47,821 nucleotides of DNA from Microcaldota archaeon (lineage in GTDB: Archaea > Micrarchaeota > Micrarchaeia > Anstonellales > Anstonellaceae), in contig JAKAJC010000002.1 of NCBI GenBank assembly GCA_021814005.1, positions 68,325 through 116,145 on the forward strand. Direction: 5' to 3'. Of this stretch, positions 12,073-47,716 are shown piece after piece; positions within the stretch are counted from its first letter, which is position 1; each line of letters begins with the position of its first letter. The translations under genes and the position numbers were made by a program. Under the pieces are notes generated by a model. The model was given only the letters and a program-made list of their open reading frames with translations, was not told where the DNA came from and made no database searches.

Positions 12073-12981
12073 CTACATCGCTCTCAATGCCTTAATTCTC
12101 TCGTCCAGCGGCGGATGAGTTGAAAACCATCCCGCCATGCGCTGCACCACGCCCTTCTTGTCGCCGCCGTGCACGGGGTCTGAAATAAACAGCGAAGCGG
12201 TTGCATCTGACGCGCTTTTGAGGGGCGGCGTGCCTTTCAGTTTTTCCAAGGCATCTGCCAGCCCGTCGGGATTGCGGGTCAATTGCGCAGCCGATGCATC
12301 CGCCAATGATTCGCGCGAGCGTGAAATTGCAAGACGAACCAGTTGCGCCAGAATGGGGCCGAAGATGACAAGCAGAAGTCCGATGACAACAAGCAGCATG
12401 TTTCCGCCGCCGCGCTCGTTTCTGTCCGAGTGCCCGCCGCCAAACCAGAACATGCGTCCAATCATGTTGGCCATTATGGCCACAAGGCCGACAAGCACAA
12501 TAGTAATTGTCATAAAGCGGGAATCAAGATTTCGCACGTGCGACATTTCATGCGCCAGCACTCCTTCCAATTCTGCGCGGTTCATGGTGTTGAGCAGGCC
12601 GGACGTGACGGCAATTGACGCGTGCTTGGGGTCACGTCCTGTTGCAAATGCATTTGGCGACGGATCCTCGATAACATACATCTTCGGCTCGGGAATGCCT
12701 GCAGCCAGCGCAAGGCCCTGAACCGTGTTGTACAAATAGGCGTCTTTTATTGCATCGGCCGGCCGCGCGCCGTGCACCGCCAGCACAATCTTGTCGCCCA
12801 AGTAATACCCGCCGATTGAATATGCAATTGAAATCACAATGGCAACCGGCAGGAGCCATTCGCCTCCGCCAACCAGCTCGCCGGCAAACCACACCAGCAC
12901 AGCCACCATGACCAGCACTACGCAGATGAGCAGGTAAGACTTGGTCTTGTTGGCTTTCTGCACATCCCAAAAGCTGGCCAT
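12073..12981 (-). CDS. htpX: HtpX-like membrane zinc metalloprotease
   Basis: A 302-residue integral membrane protease (M48 family) involved in membrane protein quality control. Two N-terminal membrane helices occur near residues 17-60, the zinc-binding motif HEMSH at about residue 145 (VLAHEMSHVRNLDSR), two more membrane helices around 160-210, and the third zinc ligand in SRESLADASAAQ. A GGTGAT ribosome site lies seven bases before the ATG. It follows lemA by 42 bases on the same strand, so the two are probably cotranscribed. LemA-HtpX pairing is common in bacteria and some archaea. Confidence 0.95.
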   Translation of the reverse strand: MASFWDVQKANKTKSYLLICVVLVMVAVLVWFAGELVGGGEWLLPVAIVISIAYSIGGYYLGDKIVLAVHGARPADAIKDAYLYNTVQGLALAAGIPEPKMYVIEDPSPNAFATGRDPKHASIAVTSGLLNTMNRAELEGVLAHEMSHVRNLDSRFMTITIVLVGLVAIMANMIGRMFWFGGGHSDRNERGGGNMLLVVIGLLLVIFGPILAQLVRLAISRSRESLADASAAQLTRNPDGLADALEKLKGTPPLKSASDATASLFISDPVHGGDKKGVVQRMAGWFSTHPPLDERIKALRAM

Positions 12982-13023
12982 AAAAAATCACCGCTGAAAA
13001 AAATTTAAGAAAAAAGAAAAAAC

Positions 13024-13584
13024 CTAGAATTTGACTTTTACCGCTTCACGGGCGCCCTCTTCGGCCTTGAAGTATTCGCGGGGTCCGAAGCCCAGGGGGC
13101 CTGCGATGATGGCGTCAGGAATTGTCTGGATGCGGGTGTTGTATTCAAGCACCGAGTCGTTGTAGAACTGGCGCGCGTAGGCAACCTTGCTCTCTATTCC
13201 GTCCAGCTGCTCCTGCAAAAGCTTGAACTGCTCATTCGCGCGAAGCTGGGGGTAGTTCTCGGCAACCGCAATCAGCGATTTGAGCGCGCCTGCAAACGAG
13301 GCGTCGGCCTTGGCCTTCTCGCCCACAGTCTGCGCGCCGGCCCACGCCGAGCGGGCTTTGGTCACGTTCTCAAACACTTCCTTCTCGTGTTTGGCATAGC
13401 CCTTCACGGTTTCGACCAGGTTGGGCACAAGCTCGTACCTTTTGGTGAGCTGCACGTCGATTTGCGCCCATGCGTTGTCCACGCGAGCGCGCAAAGACAC
13501 CAGGCCGTTGAAGGCAAATATGAGAAACAGCACGACCAGCACTATGACGCCGATCACGCCTATGAGCAACATATCGAGAGCCAT
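13024..13584 (-). CDS. lemA: LemA family membrane protein
   Basis: A 186-residue protein with one N-terminal membrane helix (residues about 5-27) followed by a long helical bundle. The family signature is clear: RARVDNAWAQIDVQLTKRYELVPNL, followed by YPQLRANEQFKLLQ and VLEYNTRIQTIP. LemA proteins are anchored with the bundle outside the cytosol; the precise function is unsettled. An AGGTGAT ribosome site precedes the ATG and a TATA-like TTTATTTAG lies about 36 bases upstream, so this is the first gene of a lemA-htpX operon. Confidence 0.95.
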   Translation of the reverse strand: MALDMLLIGVIGVIVLVVLFLIFAFNGLVSLRARVDNAWAQIDVQLTKRYELVPNLVETVKGYAKHEKEVFENVTKARSAWAGAQTVGEKAKADASFAGALKSLIAVAENYPQLRANEQFKLLQEQLDGIESKVAYARQFYNDSVLEYNTRIQTIPDAIIAGPLGFGPREYFKAEEGAREAVKVKF

Positions 13585-13653: not shown

Positions 13654-14118
13654 TTATTGACTTGCCGTAATCTTCACGCCGGGCCGCTCGGTCCCGGCCG
13701 CATCAGGTATCCACTTGTAACGCAGATAGGCCCGCTGCGTGTAATTGCCGGCATCCGCTTCCACGGCGCAAAGCACTGTGCGCGAATAATTCCAGCCTTT
13801 GCGCGAAATCGTGAGATTTTTCGACAAATCGTCATAGCTCAAAACAAATTCCACCGGAGCCAGCGCCACGCTGCGCGCGTTTCCCTCGCCCATCACGCAT
13901 ATTTCATCCGCATAGTGGCCCATTTCCTCGGCTTCCATGCGCAAAATGTTGCGCTCGGCCAAATCCGTCTGTGCGCCTGATGCGTGCGTTATGGCGGTTG
14001 CGGCTATGGCAAGAAGGGAGAGGGCGAGAAGCGCAAGCATGAGCCATTCGGCCGTAAGCTGTCCACGAAAAAAACGAAAAGGCGGATTGGGGCGGCGGGG
14101 CGTGTGCGCTTTCGGCAT
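13654..14118 (-). CDS. Class III signal peptide (pilin-like) protein
   Basis: A 154-residue protein with a basic N-terminal leader, then GQLTAEWLMLALLALSLLAI at about residue 19. The Q-x-x-x-E pattern followed by a hydrophobic helix is the archaeal class III (type IV pilin-like) signal peptide, cut before the Gln by a prepilin-type peptidase. The remainder looks beta-rich with two Cys (DEICVMG, RTVLCAVEA), which could form a disulfide. It lies 18 bases downstream of another class III gene on the same strand, so the two form a short operon divergent from the larger surface-protein operon. It is probably a minor pilin or pilus-associated component. Confidence 0.8.
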   Translation of the reverse strand: MPKAHTPRRPNPPFRFFRGQLTAEWLMLALLALSLLAIAATAITHASGAQTDLAERNILRMEAEEMGHYADEICVMGEGNARSVALAPVEFVLSYDDLSKNLTISRKGWNYSRTVLCAVEADAGNYTQRAYLRYKWIPDAAGTERPGVKITASQ

Positions 14119-14136
14119 AAATGCGCCCCCGTCGCT

Positions 14137-14370
14137 CTACTTTGTTTTGTATGCGCAGTGCTCAGTCGTGTCGCAAACCAGATTTCCGCTGCTGCCGCAC
14201 TGGCTGTCATCCGAACACGCGTTTCCGACCAGAACCGCATCGTCTGTCTTGGCCTGCATGCCGTCTCCGGCGGTGTTCACGGCCTTCGTCATGTAGGTGA
14301 AAGCGATGGCAACAAGCGCCAGCACAAGCACAAGCAGAATCAGCATCTCGGCCGACAGTTGTCCCCTCAT
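14137..14370 (-). CDS. Mini-pilin with Cys-rich C-terminus
   Basis: A 77-residue protein. MRGQLSAEMLILLVLVLALV at the N-terminus is a textbook class III signal peptide (Q-L-S-A-E). After a 25-residue linker the protein ends in a Cys-rich stretch with the pattern C-x5-C-x7-C-x5-C (ACSDDSQCGSSGNLVCD, then HCAYK), like small disulfide-rich modules in other archaeal secreted proteins. A GAGGTGGT ribosome site sits just before the ATG, and the TATA box at 14402-14411 is shared with the divergent gene at 14434. It could be a major subunit of a thin pilus or a pilus-anchored disulfide module. Confidence 0.8.
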   Translation of the reverse strand: MRGQLSAEMLILLVLVLALVAIAFTYMTKAVNTAGDGMQAKTDDAVLVGNACSDDSQCGSSGNLVCDTTEHCAYKTK

Positions 14371-14401
14371 TCAACCACCTCGTAATTCTGCCCTCGCGCA
14401 G

Positions 14402-14411
14402 CTTTATAAGG
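14402..14411. promoter_or_regulatory. Shared TATA box of the pilin-like cluster
   Basis: CTTTATAAGG is nearly palindromic. Its centre is 27-28 bases from the plus-strand ATG at 14434, giving a leaderless transcript, and about 36 from the minus-strand ATG at 14370, where the transcript would start right before a GAGGTGGT ribosome site. It appears to control both arms of the surface-protein cluster. Confidence 0.6.
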
Positions 14412-14433
14412 ATTTTAATATCATTCGGTTGAT

Positions 14434-15069
14434 ATGCAGCGTCGGCAGGGTTTTGTCTTCTCATTGGACGCGTTCGTCTCCTTCTCGCTCATCGTCATAG
14501 CCATTCAATCCATGGTCATCATGGCGTCGGTGCCCTCCGGCTACTGGCACGGCCTTCTGCAGGCCGAGAATCTGGCCAAAGACACTTTGCACGTCGTTTC
14601 CAGCACCATGGTAAGCTCGGGCGTGACAGTGGTCGGCCAGGCATCGGAGCGCATCATGGCCGGCACGAACTTCAGCTCCGGCGACAACATCATCATCATG
14701 ACAAACCGCCTCATCCCGCGGCCATATTCCTATGCCTACAACTACTACGATTTGGGCACTCACCAGTGGGTTCTGCTCTACAATGCCTCCGACCCCAACT
14801 TCAATCCAGACCCGGCAGACCCGCATTACAATGTGACATTCCATCGAGTGTCGGCCAGCTCCCAAATGCTGGTGCTTGACTATTCCTCGCCTGTAATCCG
14901 GCCCCAGTCGCCCTATTGCAATGTCTACTGCCACGGCTGGGACCCGGCAACGCACACTTATCGCGCCCCGCAGGACTGCGTAGAGACTCCGTGCACGGCA
15001 ATGCCGGCCTCCACTTTCCAGACGGGCAATCTGACCTTCGGCCTTCTGCGGCTGACGGTGTGGGGTTGA
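14434..15069 (+). CDS. Pilin-like anchored surface protein
   Basis: A 211-residue protein starting MQRRQGFVFSLDAFVSFSL, a short basic leader, then Gln-Gly and a long hydrophobic helix with an acidic residue. This is a variant of the class III arrangement. The extracytoplasmic part contains several N-glycosylation sequons and four Cys near residues 165-190 (YCNVYCHG, DCVETPC). The gene opens a tandem of five surface-protein genes (14434-18783). A similar N-terminus (QYFSADAIIAAF) occurs in the last gene of the row, suggesting paralogous roles. Specific function unknown. Confidence 0.75.
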   Translation: MQRRQGFVFSLDAFVSFSLIVIAIQSMVIMASVPSGYWHGLLQAENLAKDTLHVVSSTMVSSGVTVVGQASERIMAGTNFSSGDNIIIMTNRLIPRPYSYAYNYYDLGTHQWVLLYNASDPNFNPDPADPHYNVTFHRVSASSQMLVLDYSSPVIRPQSPYCNVYCHGWDPATHTYRAPQDCVETPCTAMPASTFQTGNLTFGLLRLTVWG

Positions 15070-15076
15070 TGAAAAC

Positions 15077-16996
15077 ATGAAACCAGCCCCAATTTCCCAG
15101 ACCGGCGGCAAGCGCGGATTCTTTTTCACAGTGCTTGCGCTGGTCATCCTCACCTTCATTTTCATCTCGATCCAGCTGTGGGCTCAGGCCCAGACCGCGG
15201 CCGAGAACCACGCTGCGGAGCGCTTCCGCGCCGAGGCGTTGCAGACAGCGCTCAGCATGGTGAGCAACGAGACATTCACCAAATTCGTCAACGCTTCGGC
15301 CATTTACGCAATCAACAAGCTGGCCACCTCATTGGAGGAGCAGCCCGACTGCGCGATTCGCGGCATCCCCTACGACACCGGCCCGTCCAATCTGTTCCCT
15401 GACGGCACCTACTATCTCAACTCCAGCATCTACGAGCTCATGACTTACGGCAACACCAGCGCGCATCTGTATTCCGACAGCACGGGCCTCTATTTCTACC
15501 AGACTCCGCACAGCAACCTGACCTACAGCGGCGAGGAGCACAAGTACGATTTGAACAATTTCTTCAACCAGACGCGCGCAGCCGTCGAGACTCTCGGCTA
15601 CCGCGTGCAATGGGGCGAGGTGGAGAACTTCACCTTCAACCAGAGCGACGCGTGGAACATGCAGGTGAGCTTCCGCGTGAGCATGAACTTCAGCGATTCG
15701 CGCGGGCTGGTCAACATAAACCGCATCATGCAAATCAACCTCACAGTGCCGGTTGACGGCTTCACCGACCCCTCGATTTTGCGGGGGGACATCAAGCACC
15801 GCGACTCGCTCTGCTCCGACCTGTCCTGCAGCACCAAAATCATCACCGCGATGTCGGCGCGCCCGCACCGCAACGTCTACCGCGGCATCGACGCCTCAAC
15901 CGGCGCGCTGGTGATTGACAATTCATCGGACGCGCAGGCGTCCCTGCTCAAATACGGCGACGAGGGCCTCGGCTGGTTCTTCGGGCCTGTTTCGAGGGAA
16001 AAGAACACTTCTTTCAGCAACACAAGCTACCGGTACAACCTTTCCACAATACGCTCCTACATCTACCAGACCGACAACGCGGCCGATGCGCTGGAGCAGT
16101 CGGGCTATTTCGGCGGCATCATCCTGACCAAAAAGTCCGACCTGAACATCACGAGCGAAATCAGGGGCAATTGCACTTTCACGAACTACACCCAGACGAA
16201 CTGCCTTTACTGCATCTCTTACCAGACCGTGACCGGCTCCCCCTGCCCCGCCCCCGCGCCGGCGTTTATCGTTCCCCAGACAATTCCAAACGACCCCTAC
16301 ATCCCATACATCCAGACGGACGGAGACCCGCCATTTATCGCAACCCACAAGAACTACCGCACCGGCCTTGACGAGGCGCTCATTGCCAACAACCTCAATG
16401 CCACCGACCTGTGCGGCTCAACGTTCAACAGCACCAACCGGGCCTGCGCTTCGGGCAACGCCGACCCCACGCCGCTCAGGCGCAAGGAGACATCGGAAAG
16501 CAAGCTGTGGGACATCACAGGCCCGCGCGACATGGCCATCTGCGGCTTTTACGTGCGCTCAACCTACGGCCCCTCGTACACGCAGAGGTTCACCGACTTC
16601 TGGCCCCACATCGACGCCATAAACGGCAACTATTCGCGCCTTAACCAGGGCATCGAATCATTCGTGCTGGGCAAGTGGGCCGGCGGCGCCGACGATTCGT
16701 GCGCAAACAACGCCCCTGCCGCCGGCATCGAAACCTACTCGAGGGTGGACTACCAGTTCTATTCGCATGACCTGACCGGGCAGACATGCAGCGGACCGTA
16801 TGTGCAAGGCCTGCCGGGCTGCAAGCAGATAGGCCACTGCGCGTCGGAAGGCCCGCTGGTGAACGGAACCGGCCGCTTCGCCCTCTGCATCGCAACCACC
16901 GACCCGCTCAACACTCCGAGCCCGGCGCAGCGCTACAATACAACCAACCTGACCTTTGTGCCAGGCGTCAACCCCGGCTTCCAGGTGTGCAGATGA
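15077..16996 (+). CDS. Large Cys- and sequon-rich anchored surface protein
   Basis: A 639-residue protein with one N-terminal membrane helix (residues about 13-35, GFFFTVLALVILTFIFISIQ) preceded by a basic leader, and a large extracytoplasmic domain. That domain carries more than twenty N-x-S/T sequons and roughly seventeen Cys (for example LCSDLSC, NCLYC, TCSG...GCKQIGHC), so it is probably glycosylated and disulfide-stabilised. The gene starts seven bases after the previous stop, and its own stop overlaps the next start (ATGA), which suggests translational coupling. By size and position it is the best candidate for an adhesin or tip protein of a pilus-like structure; that is inference. Confidence 0.78.
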   Translation: MKPAPISQTGGKRGFFFTVLALVILTFIFISIQLWAQAQTAAENHAAERFRAEALQTALSMVSNETFTKFVNASAIYAINKLATSLEEQPDCAIRGIPYDTGPSNLFPDGTYYLNSSIYELMTYGNTSAHLYSDSTGLYFYQTPHSNLTYSGEEHKYDLNNFFNQTRAAVETLGYRVQWGEVENFTFNQSDAWNMQVSFRVSMNFSDSRGLVNINRIMQINLTVPVDGFTDPSILRGDIKHRDSLCSDLSCSTKIITAMSARPHRNVYRGIDASTGALVIDNSSDAQASLLKYGDEGLGWFFGPVSREKNTSFSNTSYRYNLSTIRSYIYQTDNAADALEQSGYFGGIILTKKSDLNITSEIRGNCTFTNYTQTNCLYCISYQTVTGSPCPAPAPAFIVPQTIPNDPYIPYIQTDGDPPFIATHKNYRTGLDEALIANNLNATDLCGSTFNSTNRACASGNADPTPLRRKETSESKLWDITGPRDMAICGFYVRSTYGPSYTQRFTDFWPHIDAINGNYSRLNQGIESFVLGKWAGGADDSCANNAPAAGIETYSRVDYQFYSHDLTGQTCSGPYVQGLPGCKQIGHCASEGPLVNGTGRFALCIATTDPLNTPSPAQRYNTTNLTFVPGVNPGFQVCR

Positions 16997-17568
16997 GCGA
17001 CGGGAAAAAATGCGCATCCACGCTTCGGGCGCAGGCTGCTCTCGAGACTCTTCTCATGGTGGGCATAGTATTCGCATTCGTCATTCCCCTGGTGCTGGTT
17101 TTCTTTTCATCCACCGGCGCGCGCACCCAGGCCCTCAACGAGGTGCAGGCGATGGCGCTGGCGCAGGTGATGTCAGACACGGCCGGAGAAGTGTGGTATG
17201 CGGGCAACGGCACGCGCATGATGCTGCTGGTGAGCTTCCCCTCCGACATGCACAACATCTCTCTGGGCGGCGACGACGTTCTGGATTCGAGCCTGCCGAT
17301 GCAGGGGCATGAAATATCCATCGTGCTTGACAATTCCCCCATAGGCGTGGACGAGATAATGATTGTGGCGCCGGCGCCGGTGCGCAGCGTGCCGCCTCTC
17401 CTGGCGCCAGACGGCACTTTCCTCACGCAGGCGGAACAGAACCGGACGCGCCTTGTCCAGCGCGTATCCCAAACAAGCCCGCGCCTGCGCTCCGGACTGG
17501 TTGCGCTCATATTTGAAAACAAGGGGAATTACGTGAACATCATCCGCAAGGTGGACAAGATCAGCTAA
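16993..17568 (+). CDS. Class III signal peptide (pilin-like) protein
   Basis: A 191-residue protein. The start at 16993 overlaps the preceding stop by four bases (ATGA); a longer upstream frame lies within the previous gene and is not used. The N-terminus has a basic leader, then LRAQAALETLLMVGIVFAF, a class III signal peptide with Q-x-x-x-E, followed by a hydrophobic helix. The mature domain appears beta-rich without Cys (MLLVSFPSDMHNISLGGDD, ISIVLDNSPIGVDEIMIV). It is probably a pilin subunit or pseudopilin of the same structure as its neighbours. Confidence 0.8.
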   Translation: MSDGKKCASTLRAQAALETLLMVGIVFAFVIPLVLVFFSSTGARTQALNEVQAMALAQVMSDTAGEVWYAGNGTRMMLLVSFPSDMHNISLGGDDVLDSSLPMQGHEISIVLDNSPIGVDEIMIVAPAPVRSVPPLLAPDGTFLTQAEQNRTRLVQRVSQTSPRLRSGLVALIFENKGNYVNIIRKVDKIS

Positions 17569-17593
17569 ACGAAATTTTTTGGAACGTGAACAG

Positions 17594-18184
17594 ATGACAG
17601 GCAAAAAAACAGAATGCATCTCCCGGGCTGTTTCGTCCCGCATGCCGAGCCTGTCTTCCGCCTCTTCGCCCGCCGTTCGCGGCCAGTCGTCGGTCGAGGT
17701 GATGGTTTACCTTGGCTTTTTCATGCTCATGTTCGTCTCGCTCTCAATCCTTTTCCTCTCGCAGGTCCATCAGGACATTTCCCAGCGCGAGATACAGGCG
17801 AGCCAGAGCATCGCCTCGCAGGTGGCCCAGAACGTGGACCTCGCCCTTCTGGCAGGCATCGGCTTCAATGCGACCTTCCCGATTCCTGAAAACATCAACG
17901 GCAGGCAGTATTCTCTCAATTTCACCAACTCCAGCTCGCTCTATGTATACATCGACCAGGGCCCGCTGAGCGCGCCCGAGGTATTCTACTTCCCGCTCTC
18001 CACGCGAAACATACGCCTGGGCTGTTTCGACCCCGACCCGCTCTGCCCGGGCAACCAGCAGTCGACCTACACCGACGTGCAGGGCAATCTGCGCCAGGAA
18101 TGGGGCGTGAACGCATCCAAGGGAACGCTTCACATCGAGACAGTGCAGGACGCCAGCGGCGCGCTGCTTTTGGAGGTGAGCTGA
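17594..18184 (+). CDS. Class III signal peptide (pilin-like) protein
   Basis: A 196-residue protein with a long leader of about 33 residues before GQSSVEVMVYLGFFMLMF, a class III signal peptide with Q-S-S-V-E. The mature region has a helix (HQDISQREIQASQSIASQ) typical of the exposed part of a pilin helix, then beta-rich sequence with one Cys pair (LGCFDPDPLC). The ATG at 17594 is preferred over an upstream TTG. Its stop overlaps the next start (ATGA arrangement at 18182-18186), implying coupled translation. Confidence 0.8.
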   Translation: MTGKKTECISRAVSSRMPSLSSASSPAVRGQSSVEVMVYLGFFMLMFVSLSILFLSQVHQDISQREIQASQSIASQVAQNVDLALLAGIGFNATFPIPENINGRQYSLNFTNSSSLYVYIDQGPLSAPEVFYFPLSTRNIRLGCFDPDPLCPGNQQSTYTDVQGNLRQEWGVNASKGTLHIETVQDASGALLLEVS

Positions 18185-18783
18185 TGATGCCGATGCGCCT
18201 GTTCCCAGCAGCGAAAAAAGGCCAGTATTTCTCCGCCGACGCCATCATCGCGGCATTCATCTTCGTGATGGCCCTCTCGCTCCTTACTGCGCAATGGTTT
18301 GCCCTGCGCTCGCAGGCCGACTCCCAGTCGATTTCGCTTCTCGAGGACGCCAACCGCGTATCCGACCTTCTCATCACAGTGGGCAATCCGGACAACTGGT
18401 ATCTCTCCCCGGCCGCAGCCCGCTCGGCCGGATTTGCAATAAACGGCACGCGGGGCGGAACGCTTAACCAGACGATGCTGGCGCTGGCAGGCCCGGCCTT
18501 CAGCAACATGGCCCGCTACAACCAGTCCAAGCTGCTGCTGGCGTTGCCTGTGGATTATTACATCGAATTCAACCTGACTTCGCTGGATCCGGCAGCTCCG
18601 GCCTATCCATCTATTGACTTCCCCTACATCGCCATCGGCCTTCCTCCCATGCATCCCACTCAAAAGGTGCAGGTGTATCGCGGCGTGGTGGTTCCGGCCA
18701 CCGACACAATGACGCCATCCACAGTTTACTATTACTACGGCACAATGACCGTGACGCTGTGGACCAACCGCTCGAACATGTAA
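18184..18783 (+). CDS. Pilin-like anchored surface protein
   Basis: A 199-residue protein starting at the ATG that overlaps the previous stop. The N-terminal leader is followed by GQYFSADAIIAAFIFVMALS, a variant class III segment resembling the N-terminus of the first gene of the row (QGFVFSLDAF). The extracytoplasmic part has several sequons (NGT, NQT, NQS, NLT, NRS) and many Tyr near the end. It is the last gene of the surface-protein operon, followed by a T-rich stretch at 18792-18818 that may terminate transcription. Confidence 0.78.
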   Translation: MMPMRLFPAAKKGQYFSADAIIAAFIFVMALSLLTAQWFALRSQADSQSISLLEDANRVSDLLITVGNPDNWYLSPAAARSAGFAINGTRGGTLNQTMLALAGPAFSNMARYNQSKLLLALPVDYYIEFNLTSLDPAAPAYPSIDFPYIAIGLPPMHPTQKVQVYRGVVVPATDTMTPSTVYYYYGTMTVTLWTNRSNM

Positions 18784-31323: not shown

Positions 31324-31418
31324 ATAAACAAAAGTCAATTTCTTCTTTTTCTTTTCTCTTTGGCCAGCTGGCGCGCCCAGCGGATATGTTTTTAATCTCC
31401 CCTTCCCCATCGCCGTTT

Positions 31419-31847
31419 ATGCGCACACGCGGTCAGGCCTCATCCGAGTTTCTCATGGTATTGGCCCTAATCTCGGCCGCCATCCTGCCCCTTCTTCTCA
31501 TGCTTGCCTGGAATTCGCGCGCCTCGCCCGAGCAGCTCTCGGTGGGCGTTGCCACCTTCTCCGCCTCGCGCCTTGCCGCGGCAGTCAACGCCGTCGGCTC
31601 ACTCGGCCCCGGCGCGGCACTGCGCACCCAAATAGTGCTGCCGCGCACGCTTTATGCCAGCGCGTCGGGGCGCGAAATAGTCATAGATTTGAACACTTCA
31701 TATGGCGAGGTGGCGCTGGTTCAGCCCACGCGCTTCAACATCTCCTCCGTAGGCTTCGAGCGCATCAATCGGGAAGGCACATATATCATTGATGTGCGCG
31801 CGCCAAACAGCACCGACTCGCCAAACGTGACACTGACGCTGCCTTGA
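31419..31847 (+). CDS. Class III signal peptide (pilin-like) protein
   Basis: A 142-residue protein starting MRTRGQASSEFLMVLALISA, a textbook class III signal peptide (Q-A-S-S-E then hydrophobic helix). The mature part is beta-rich without Cys (IVLPRTLYASASGREIVID; FNISSVGFERINREGTYIID) and has several sequons near the end. The ATG at 31419 is supported by TTTTTAAT, about 27 bases upstream (31389-31396). It stands alone, 13 kb from the main pilin-like cluster. Confidence 0.82.
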   Translation: MRTRGQASSEFLMVLALISAAILPLLLMLAWNSRASPEQLSVGVATFSASRLAAAVNAVGSLGPGAALRTQIVLPRTLYASASGREIVIDLNTSYGEVALVQPTRFNISSVGFERINREGTYIIDVRAPNSTDSPNVTLTLP

Positions 31848-46675: not shown

Positions 46676-47716
46676 TTACATAAACACTCCAAGGAATTCG
46701 TGCAGGAACGTCTTTACCCCAAGATAAACCAGATATGAAACAATGGCCAGCGGCGGCCAGTACTTAAGCCCGAAAAGCACCTTGCCTTCCGAAATTACCC
46801 CGACGAATATGGCCACAAGCAGCGCAGTGCCGACTATGATGACCGATGCCATCTGGTTGACAAAGGCGGGAGAGAGGTTGAGCGAGGGCGCCAGCATGCT
46901 GCCCATCATTTTGACCGAGTCTGTGTTGATTTCAGCCTGCATTTTCGAGAATATGGCCAAGAATTCTGTCGAGATGGCCAGAAGCAGCGGCAGGCCGCCG
47001 ATGAGAATGAAGATGAGGAAAATGGTGTATGTGCGCGTGTTTAGCACAGTCTCTTTTCGCAGCTCCTCCAAATCACGGATTTCCTCGGCAGCGGTTTCAA
47101 GCAGGTTGGCCAGCTTTCCTCCCGAGCGCAGGCCGTTTTCGAAGAACGAAATCGTGCGCCTCAGAACCGGCGAGTCGATGTGGTCTGCCAATTGCAGCAG
47201 GGCGTCTGTAAAAGTTTCGGTTCCTACCGAGCGGGCCGCAATCGTTTTGACCTCTTTTTCCAGCGGCCCGAATTCTGGGCGCGCGGCCGCGTTGAAGGCG
47301 GCGAAAGGCGTCAAGCCGGCGTGCATCTGCGCCGCCACCATCAGCAAAAAGTCCGGCAGCACCTCTTCAACACGCCGCGTGCGGTCATGGATGATGTAAT
47401 ACAAATGAAGATAGACCAGCGCCAGCACCAGCGCGAAACCGGCCAGCGCCGACAGAACCATGTACCCTATCATGAAAGTGAAATTCAGCTCGCCCGGCAC
47501 CCCGAATCCGATGTCGCTGTTGCTCACATACACGACTATGGGGGGCAGCAGCAGCGCGGCCAGCGCCACGCTGATGGCAAGAAGCAGGCGCGAGCCAAGC
47601 CAGATTTGCGGAGGCTGCTCTATTCCGGCCATGCCGAGCAGGCGGCTCAGCGATGACCCTCCCGCGTGCGGAGCCAGCGGCACGAAGCGCCTTTGCACAA
47701 TGATTCTTGATGCCAT
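46676..47716 (-). CDS. Type II secretion F / TadC-FlaJ-like membrane protein
   Basis: A 346-residue integral membrane platform protein of type IV pilus or archaellum-like machines. Hydrophobic segments lie near residues 45-65, 78-107, about 230-250, 285-305 and 318-335. The cytosolic domain between them has the T2SSF pattern: EVLPDFLLMVAAQMHAGLTP near residue 140, and ENGLRSGGKLANLLETAAEE near 215. A partner F-type gene ends 15 bases upstream, so the two form a pair as in Tad or archaellum systems. It may assemble the class III pilin-like proteins encoded elsewhere in the window. Confidence 0.9.
   Translation of the reverse strand: MASRIIVQRRFVPLAPHAGGSSLSRLLGMAGIEQPPQIWLGSRLLLAISVALAALLLPPIVVYVSNSDIGFGVPGELNFTFMIGYMVLSALAGFALVLALVYLHLYYIIHDRTRRVEEVLPDFLLMVAAQMHAGLTPFAAFNAAARPEFGPLEKEVKTIAARSVGTETFTDALLQLADHIDSPVLRRTISFFENGLRSGGKLANLLETAAEEIRDLEELRKETVLNTRTYTIFLIFILIGGLPLLLAISTEFLAIFSKMQAEINTDSVKMMGSMLAPSLNLSPAFVNQMASVIIVGTALLVAIFVGVISEGKVLFGLKYWPPLAIVSYLVYLGVKTFLHEFLGVFM

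Follow-up and report, generated by a model that had tools for sequence, protein, structure and literature searches.

A conserved five-gene type IV pilin set in Micrarchaeota and its candidate role at an adhesive pilus tip

The pilin-like gene cluster and its conserved unit

The window, meaning the whole 47,821-nucleotide stretch of DNA that was analysed, is C15:68325-116145 of a 1.2 Mb micrarchaeal genome comprising 34 contigs and 92% complete. A sequence-only reading had placed seven ORFs with class III or variant signals at 13654-18783, two on the minus and five on the plus strand, and all seven are present there:

13654-14118, minus strand: accessory pilin-like protein, 154 aa, QLTAEW
14137-14370, minus strand: accessory class III signal protein, 77 aa, QLSAEM, tail with Cys
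14403-14411, no strand assigned: near-palindromic TATA box TTTATAAGG serving the five-gene operon, 31 nt upstream of the F1 start codon
14434-15069, plus strand: F1, pilin-like, 211 aa, mature start FVFSLDA, Asp at +6
15077-16996, plus strand: F2, large pilin-like protein rich in Cys and sequons, 639 aa, mature start FFFTV, proposed tip cap
16993-17568, plus strand: P1, pilin-like, 191 aa, QAALET, Glu/Asp at +5
17594-18184, plus strand: P2, pilin-like, about 196-201 aa, QSSVEV, Glu at +5, alternative TTG start at 17579
18184-18783, plus strand: F3, pilin-like, 199 aa, QYFSADA, Asp at +6, overlapping the P2 stop

Each of the seven N-termini consists of a charged leader, Gly or Ala at -1 and a hydrophobic stretch of about 20 residues, in agreement with the signals claimed. 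Also borne out are the stop-start overlaps (ATGA at 16993-16996, TGATG at 18182-18186), the description of the 639-residue member as rich in cysteines and sequons, of which 16 and 23 were counted, and the single TATA box. The curated cut-off of PF04021 (Class_IIIsignal) was reached by none of the cluster proteins, the only one near it being the 77-aa protein (22.2 bits, under the cut-off of 23.7). Among the loci read, the minus-strand pair is shared with close family members alone (L047, L048, L053), and it is accessory, outside the conserved unit. The proposal of a dedicated surface complex therefore stands for a pilin-type complex, but not for seven genes as a unit, five being conserved and two lineage-specific. 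Beside the cluster, at 12073-13584 on the minus strand, lie a LemA family gene (PF04011) and an apparent HtpX-like metalloprotease gene, and a lone P1-like pilin of 153 aa (GQASSEFLMV; P1 profile E 4e-19) is encoded at 31386-31847 on the plus strand, with no partners adjoining.

The order F1-F2-P1-P2-F3 on one strand is exact in 55 of the 62 loci with enough upstream sequence, out of 77 distinct loci that all come from Micrarchaeota relatives, and it is retained by divergent copies of the module in other families. The flanks vary between loci while the internal order stays fixed, and the arrangement holds through most of the taxonomic order to which the genome belongs. On this comparative evidence the five plus-strand ORFs are genes rather than chance ORFs, because orthologues occur in conserved order across tens of genomes. 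F2, with the 639-aa protein as query, was matched in 69/99 relatives, and an F2 profile gave matches, some of them weak, in 77/146 genomes drawn from the phylum. At locus L118 F2 is represented by two consecutive matches, split or duplicated, with the rest of the module intact. The records found by a scan for the F3 motif [KR]GQYFSFD all bear the names Micrarchaeota, 'ainarchaeum' or just archaeon. A correlated loss of the module and the AMEYLMTYGWA pilin (described below) in genus g23 was considered but given up once the F2 profile had revealed divergent copies in G036 and G039, overlooked by a single-sequence search.

In 40 of 47 loci, counting that of the window, a TTTAWA box precedes F1 by 22-45 nt, as against 1.8% of random positions. 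Its position, about 30 nt before F1, predicts that the transcript of the module is leaderless. The two divergent minus-strand genes may share the TTTATAAGG box.

Assembly residues, head and predicted folds of the subunits

Class III (prepilin) signals were found in all five families, with 15-43 aligned members each. In mature numbering, an acidic residue occupies +5 in every aligned member of P1 (19/19) and P2 (19/19), and Asp occupies +6 throughout F1 (43/43) and F3 (15/15 aligned members). F2 has an acidic residue within +1 to +11 in none of 40 members. The F2 of the window carries 23 N-glycosylation sites against 7.6 in shuffled sequences, a count equalled in 0/500 shuffles; the sequon excess recurs in 42/42 aligned members of the family, and the cysteines are nearly invariant in the alignment.

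Structure prediction, which had been suggested for each subunit, was run for F1 and F2, and both models begin with a long N-terminal helix. The AlphaFold2 model of F1 (pLDDT 87) has a helical stretch of about 50 residues followed by antiparallel strands, and is predicted to be pilin-like, while that of F2 (pLDDT 79) has three strands at 175-225 after the helix, and a large head. Foldseek searches of the PDB gave no meaningful match for either model, the best E being 1.7 for F1 and, for F2, 0.015 with an unrelated protein as the hit. None of the five subunits had a significant match to a Pfam or NCBIfam family, the PDB contained no sequence match to them, and Pfam detected no known adhesive-type domain in the window's own F2. 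Deeper Micrarchaeota homologues carry LamG domains on F2, F1 and P2, and DUF2341 on F2.

Paralogous pilin sets and pilus machines

Second copies of F3 adjoin ATPase and platform genes, and a machinery-linked paralogous set, P1'-P2'-F3'-F1'-F2'-[CBS]-ATPase-F-F, opens complete type IV pilus (T4P) operons at about 17 loci. When profiles of the module were compared with this set, E-values were 9e-31 for F3, 6e-21 for P2, 3e-12 for F1 and 1e-6 for F2, the support for F2-F2' homology being limited to the N-terminal 57 columns. The counterpart of each tested subunit (F1', F2', F3', P2') was the best match in its own row, in a matrix that is not blind for F1' and F2', which were chosen by position and N-terminus before the comparison. 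In one T4P operon subtype (L125-L131, L133) a CBS-domain protein is encoded between the pilin set and the ATPase, where nucleotide control of the motor is possible.

One such operon reaches into the right end of the window, where two features were recorded:

46676-47716, minus strand: T2SSF platform protein (PF00482), closing a second T4P operon, P2'-F3'-F1'-F2'-ATPase-F-F, that continues on contig C3
47695-47821, no strand assigned: assembly overlap, 127 bases that also open contig C3 of the same genome (L013) without a mismatch

Contigs C15 and C3 are taken to be adjacent in the genome because of this identical overlap, and the same arrangement around the second platform gene is found in unbroken operons in G003, G005, G006 and G009. 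The sequence-only reading had offered the gene at 46.7-47.8 kb as the platform of the cluster, a candidate that was rejected: it is the last gene of an operon that continues on C3 with its own pilin set, and it belongs to the other pilus. The statement that the window holds no ATPase is correct within its limits, but one lies about 1 kb beyond the right end.

Three T2SSE ATPases and several T2SSF genes are encoded in the genome, together with one A24 prepilin peptidase (PF01478, contig C27). Contig C7 carries an ATPase, two platform proteins and a major pilin. In most genomes examined, operons of this C7 type run ATPase, variable protein, two platform genes and one pilin, AMEYLMTYGWA. The motif EYLMTYG occurs in 76/99 genomes and is missing from the reversed control; most relatives have one or two matches and G095 has 19. 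The highly variable protein between the C7-type ATPase and the first platform gene (L011:7623-11081, counterparts L161-L175) ranges from about 210 to 1150 aa, and the one protein scanned has no Pfam family. The third ATPase (L012:7705-10859, contig C17) is accompanied by a 580-aa two-domain platform protein, with metabolic genes around it and no pilins nearby. The suggested co-occurrence of the module with ATPase and platform genes was checked and rejected as a test, since T2SSE and T2SSF are found in 99/99 relatives and give no contrast.

An orthologous cassette, in the order P1-P2-F3-F1-F2, directly converges on the ATPase/platform operon of a C7-type machine in ten genomes belonging to three deeper families (f13, f16 and f17); in 2/10 an additional pilin-like ORF separates the two:

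Cassette abutting a C7-type machine: G088, G090, G095, G098, G099, G100, G110, G115, G131, G157

Homologues of the cluster are thus found with T4P machinery, so that the refuting condition set in the sequence-only reading, homologues never occurring with such machinery, did not hold, and the view of a pilin-type surface complex is supported. The platforms beside the cassette in these families have C7 as their best match; in G090 and G095, where just two T2SSF matches and hence a single platform pair are present, that pair is the one beside the cassette. The module lies about 11-16 kb from the C7-type operon in several g22 genomes and 25-27 kb from it in g13. C7-type operons are mostly without a five-pilin set, the exception being family f5, in which a complete C3-type operon follows. 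Cassette and C7-type operon are considered complementary because elsewhere the C7-type operon mostly has one major-type pilin and no cassette. Given the adjacency in f13, f16 and f17 and the proximity in g22 and g13, the orphan module would appear to have once formed a single system with the C7-type operon, from which it parted in the lineage of the window. Against this partnership, G037 (93% complete) and G009 (84%) have C7-type machinery with no module detected, and G035 and G048 have the module with no C7-type platform detected.

The same neighbourhoods bear on whether the five proteins could instead be a whole filament or short pseudopilus, a heteropolymer acting on its own at the surface or in secretion and not as the tip of the AMEYLMTYGWA pilus. 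Five different pilins share one operon, which in most genomes has no major pilin beside it, and the ordinary Glu+5 signals of P1 and P2 could allow polymerisation; nevertheless, this is unlikely, as the machine that the cassette abuts in the ten genomes mostly has its own single major-type pilin, and a subunit of 500-1500 aa lacking the acidic residue would be hard to place in a helical shaft. It is quite unlikely, too, that the cassette is an alternative tip of the C3-type machine, swapping with that machine's P2'-F3'-F1'-F2' set. The C3-type operon is about 30 kb from the module in this genome, and in Myxococcus xanthus unlinked paralogous clusters of minor pilins provide alternative tips that are exchanged on one pilus, several being usable (PMC12075869), a likeness tempered by the fact that KilLMN of M. 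xanthus is trimeric and belongs to a bacterial Kil/Tad system (PMC12075869). The C3-type operon, however, already possesses a pilin set, and both the C7-like platforms beside the deep-family cassettes and the genomes with a single platform pair argue against it. Assignment of the module to a C7-type pilus is preferred.

A candidate adhesive tip and priming complex

The five genes of the module form a type IV pilin set, placed in the T4F superfamily by the class III signals of its subunits, by ATPase and platform genes that are linked to it in relatives, and by the prepilin peptidase. In bacteria, filament assembly starts from a complex of minor pilins, the capping one of which lacks Glu5 (PMC10191384), and GspK/PilX, without Glu5, is located at the tip (PMC7541494). 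The module resembles GspHIJK/PilHIJK in being an operon of several minor pilins that includes a putative capping one without Glu5 (PMC10191384, PMC7541494), and in its proposed role at the start of the filament. It differs in having five subunits, with Asp at +6 in two, and in its lack of detectable sequence similarity, fold similarity having been searched for F1 and F2 only and none found. By analogy, the module is considered to work like a minor-pilin tip complex and to follow the same logic as the bacterial ones; it is kept out of HIJK/GspK because homology to GspH/I/J/K was looked for in Pfam, NCBIfam, PDB sequences and the F1 and F2 folds, and not found.

A second precedent is PilABC of Streptococcus sanguinis, modular glycan-binding minor pilins proposed at the tip, of which one bears an added concanavalin A-like lectin and one lacks Glu5 (PMC9934059). 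The likeness is one of architecture, the LamG domains lying on proteins of deeper Micrarchaeota only and not on those of the window. In archaeal T4P loci, pilins with class III signals, several minor ones among them, are encoded alongside a single ATPase and one or two TadC-like platforms, and DUF2341 proteins, tied by Makarova et al. to PilY-type tip adhesins, have been proposed at the tip (PMC4858521). The present module departs from these loci in that its pilin set is split from the machine and reordered, and in the occurrence of DUF2341 as part of a pilin-like fusion protein; a text search of the 2016 census found no mention of Micrarchaeota (PMC4858521). The part of the Micrarchaeon Mia14 account used here describes two T4P systems, LamG genes linked to T4P loci, and pili-like contacts of ARMAN cells with hosts (PMC5498576), whereas a set of five subunits, with its order and paralogy and a member lacking the acidic residue, does not figure in that part of the account.

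Taken together, the bacterial tip-complex precedents, the LamG and DUF2341 domains on deeper homologues and the reports on ARMAN contacts and LamG genes make adhesive tip and assembly primer the most likely function of the module, and a probability of roughly 0.6 is given to its being the adhesive tip/priming complex of a C7-type pilus encoded on another contig. The leaders of all five subunits would be cleaved by the A24 prepilin peptidase, and the mature subunits would form one hetero-oligomer at the pilus tip. F2, with its large Cys- and sequon-rich head and no acidic residue of the kind by which the next subunit up is normally neutralised, would cap the complex; F1 and F3 (Asp+6) and P1 and P2 (Glu+5) would connect it to the shaft. 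The complex would prime polymerisation of the AMEYLMTYGWA major pilin by the C7-type machine and would then be displayed as an adhesive tip, probably contacting another cell. A position at the pilus base, like that of minor archaellins, with the cassette as adaptor or stator to the cell envelope, is improbable: Makarova et al. (2016, PMC4858521), taking archaella as the model, did put archaeal minor pilins close to the base, but the missing acidic residue of F2 and the lectin-type LamG and DUF2341 domains on F2 and its partners suit a tip cap better.

Extended to the family, the adhesive tip/primer reading leads to a more tentative proposal, which falls somewhat short of an even chance: the module may be the archaeal counterpart of the GspHIJK and PilABC tips, a widely conserved five-pilin cassette in which charge roles are fixed (two Glu+5 subunits, two Asp+6 subunits and one uncharged cap), with a paralogous version for each pilus type, armed with LamG in deeper lineages and then likely to act as an organ of host or cell contact.

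The module bears on the question of how other cells are recognised and held by DPANN archaea. As a syntenic pilus-tip candidate, it offers five named proteins as a handle on cell contact in Micrarchaeota, and would tie together, in one defined complex, the pili-like contacts of ARMAN cells and the LamG genes found close to T4P loci. A further suggestion is that capping of the tip complex by a Glu5-less subunit is a rule that reaches the archaea.
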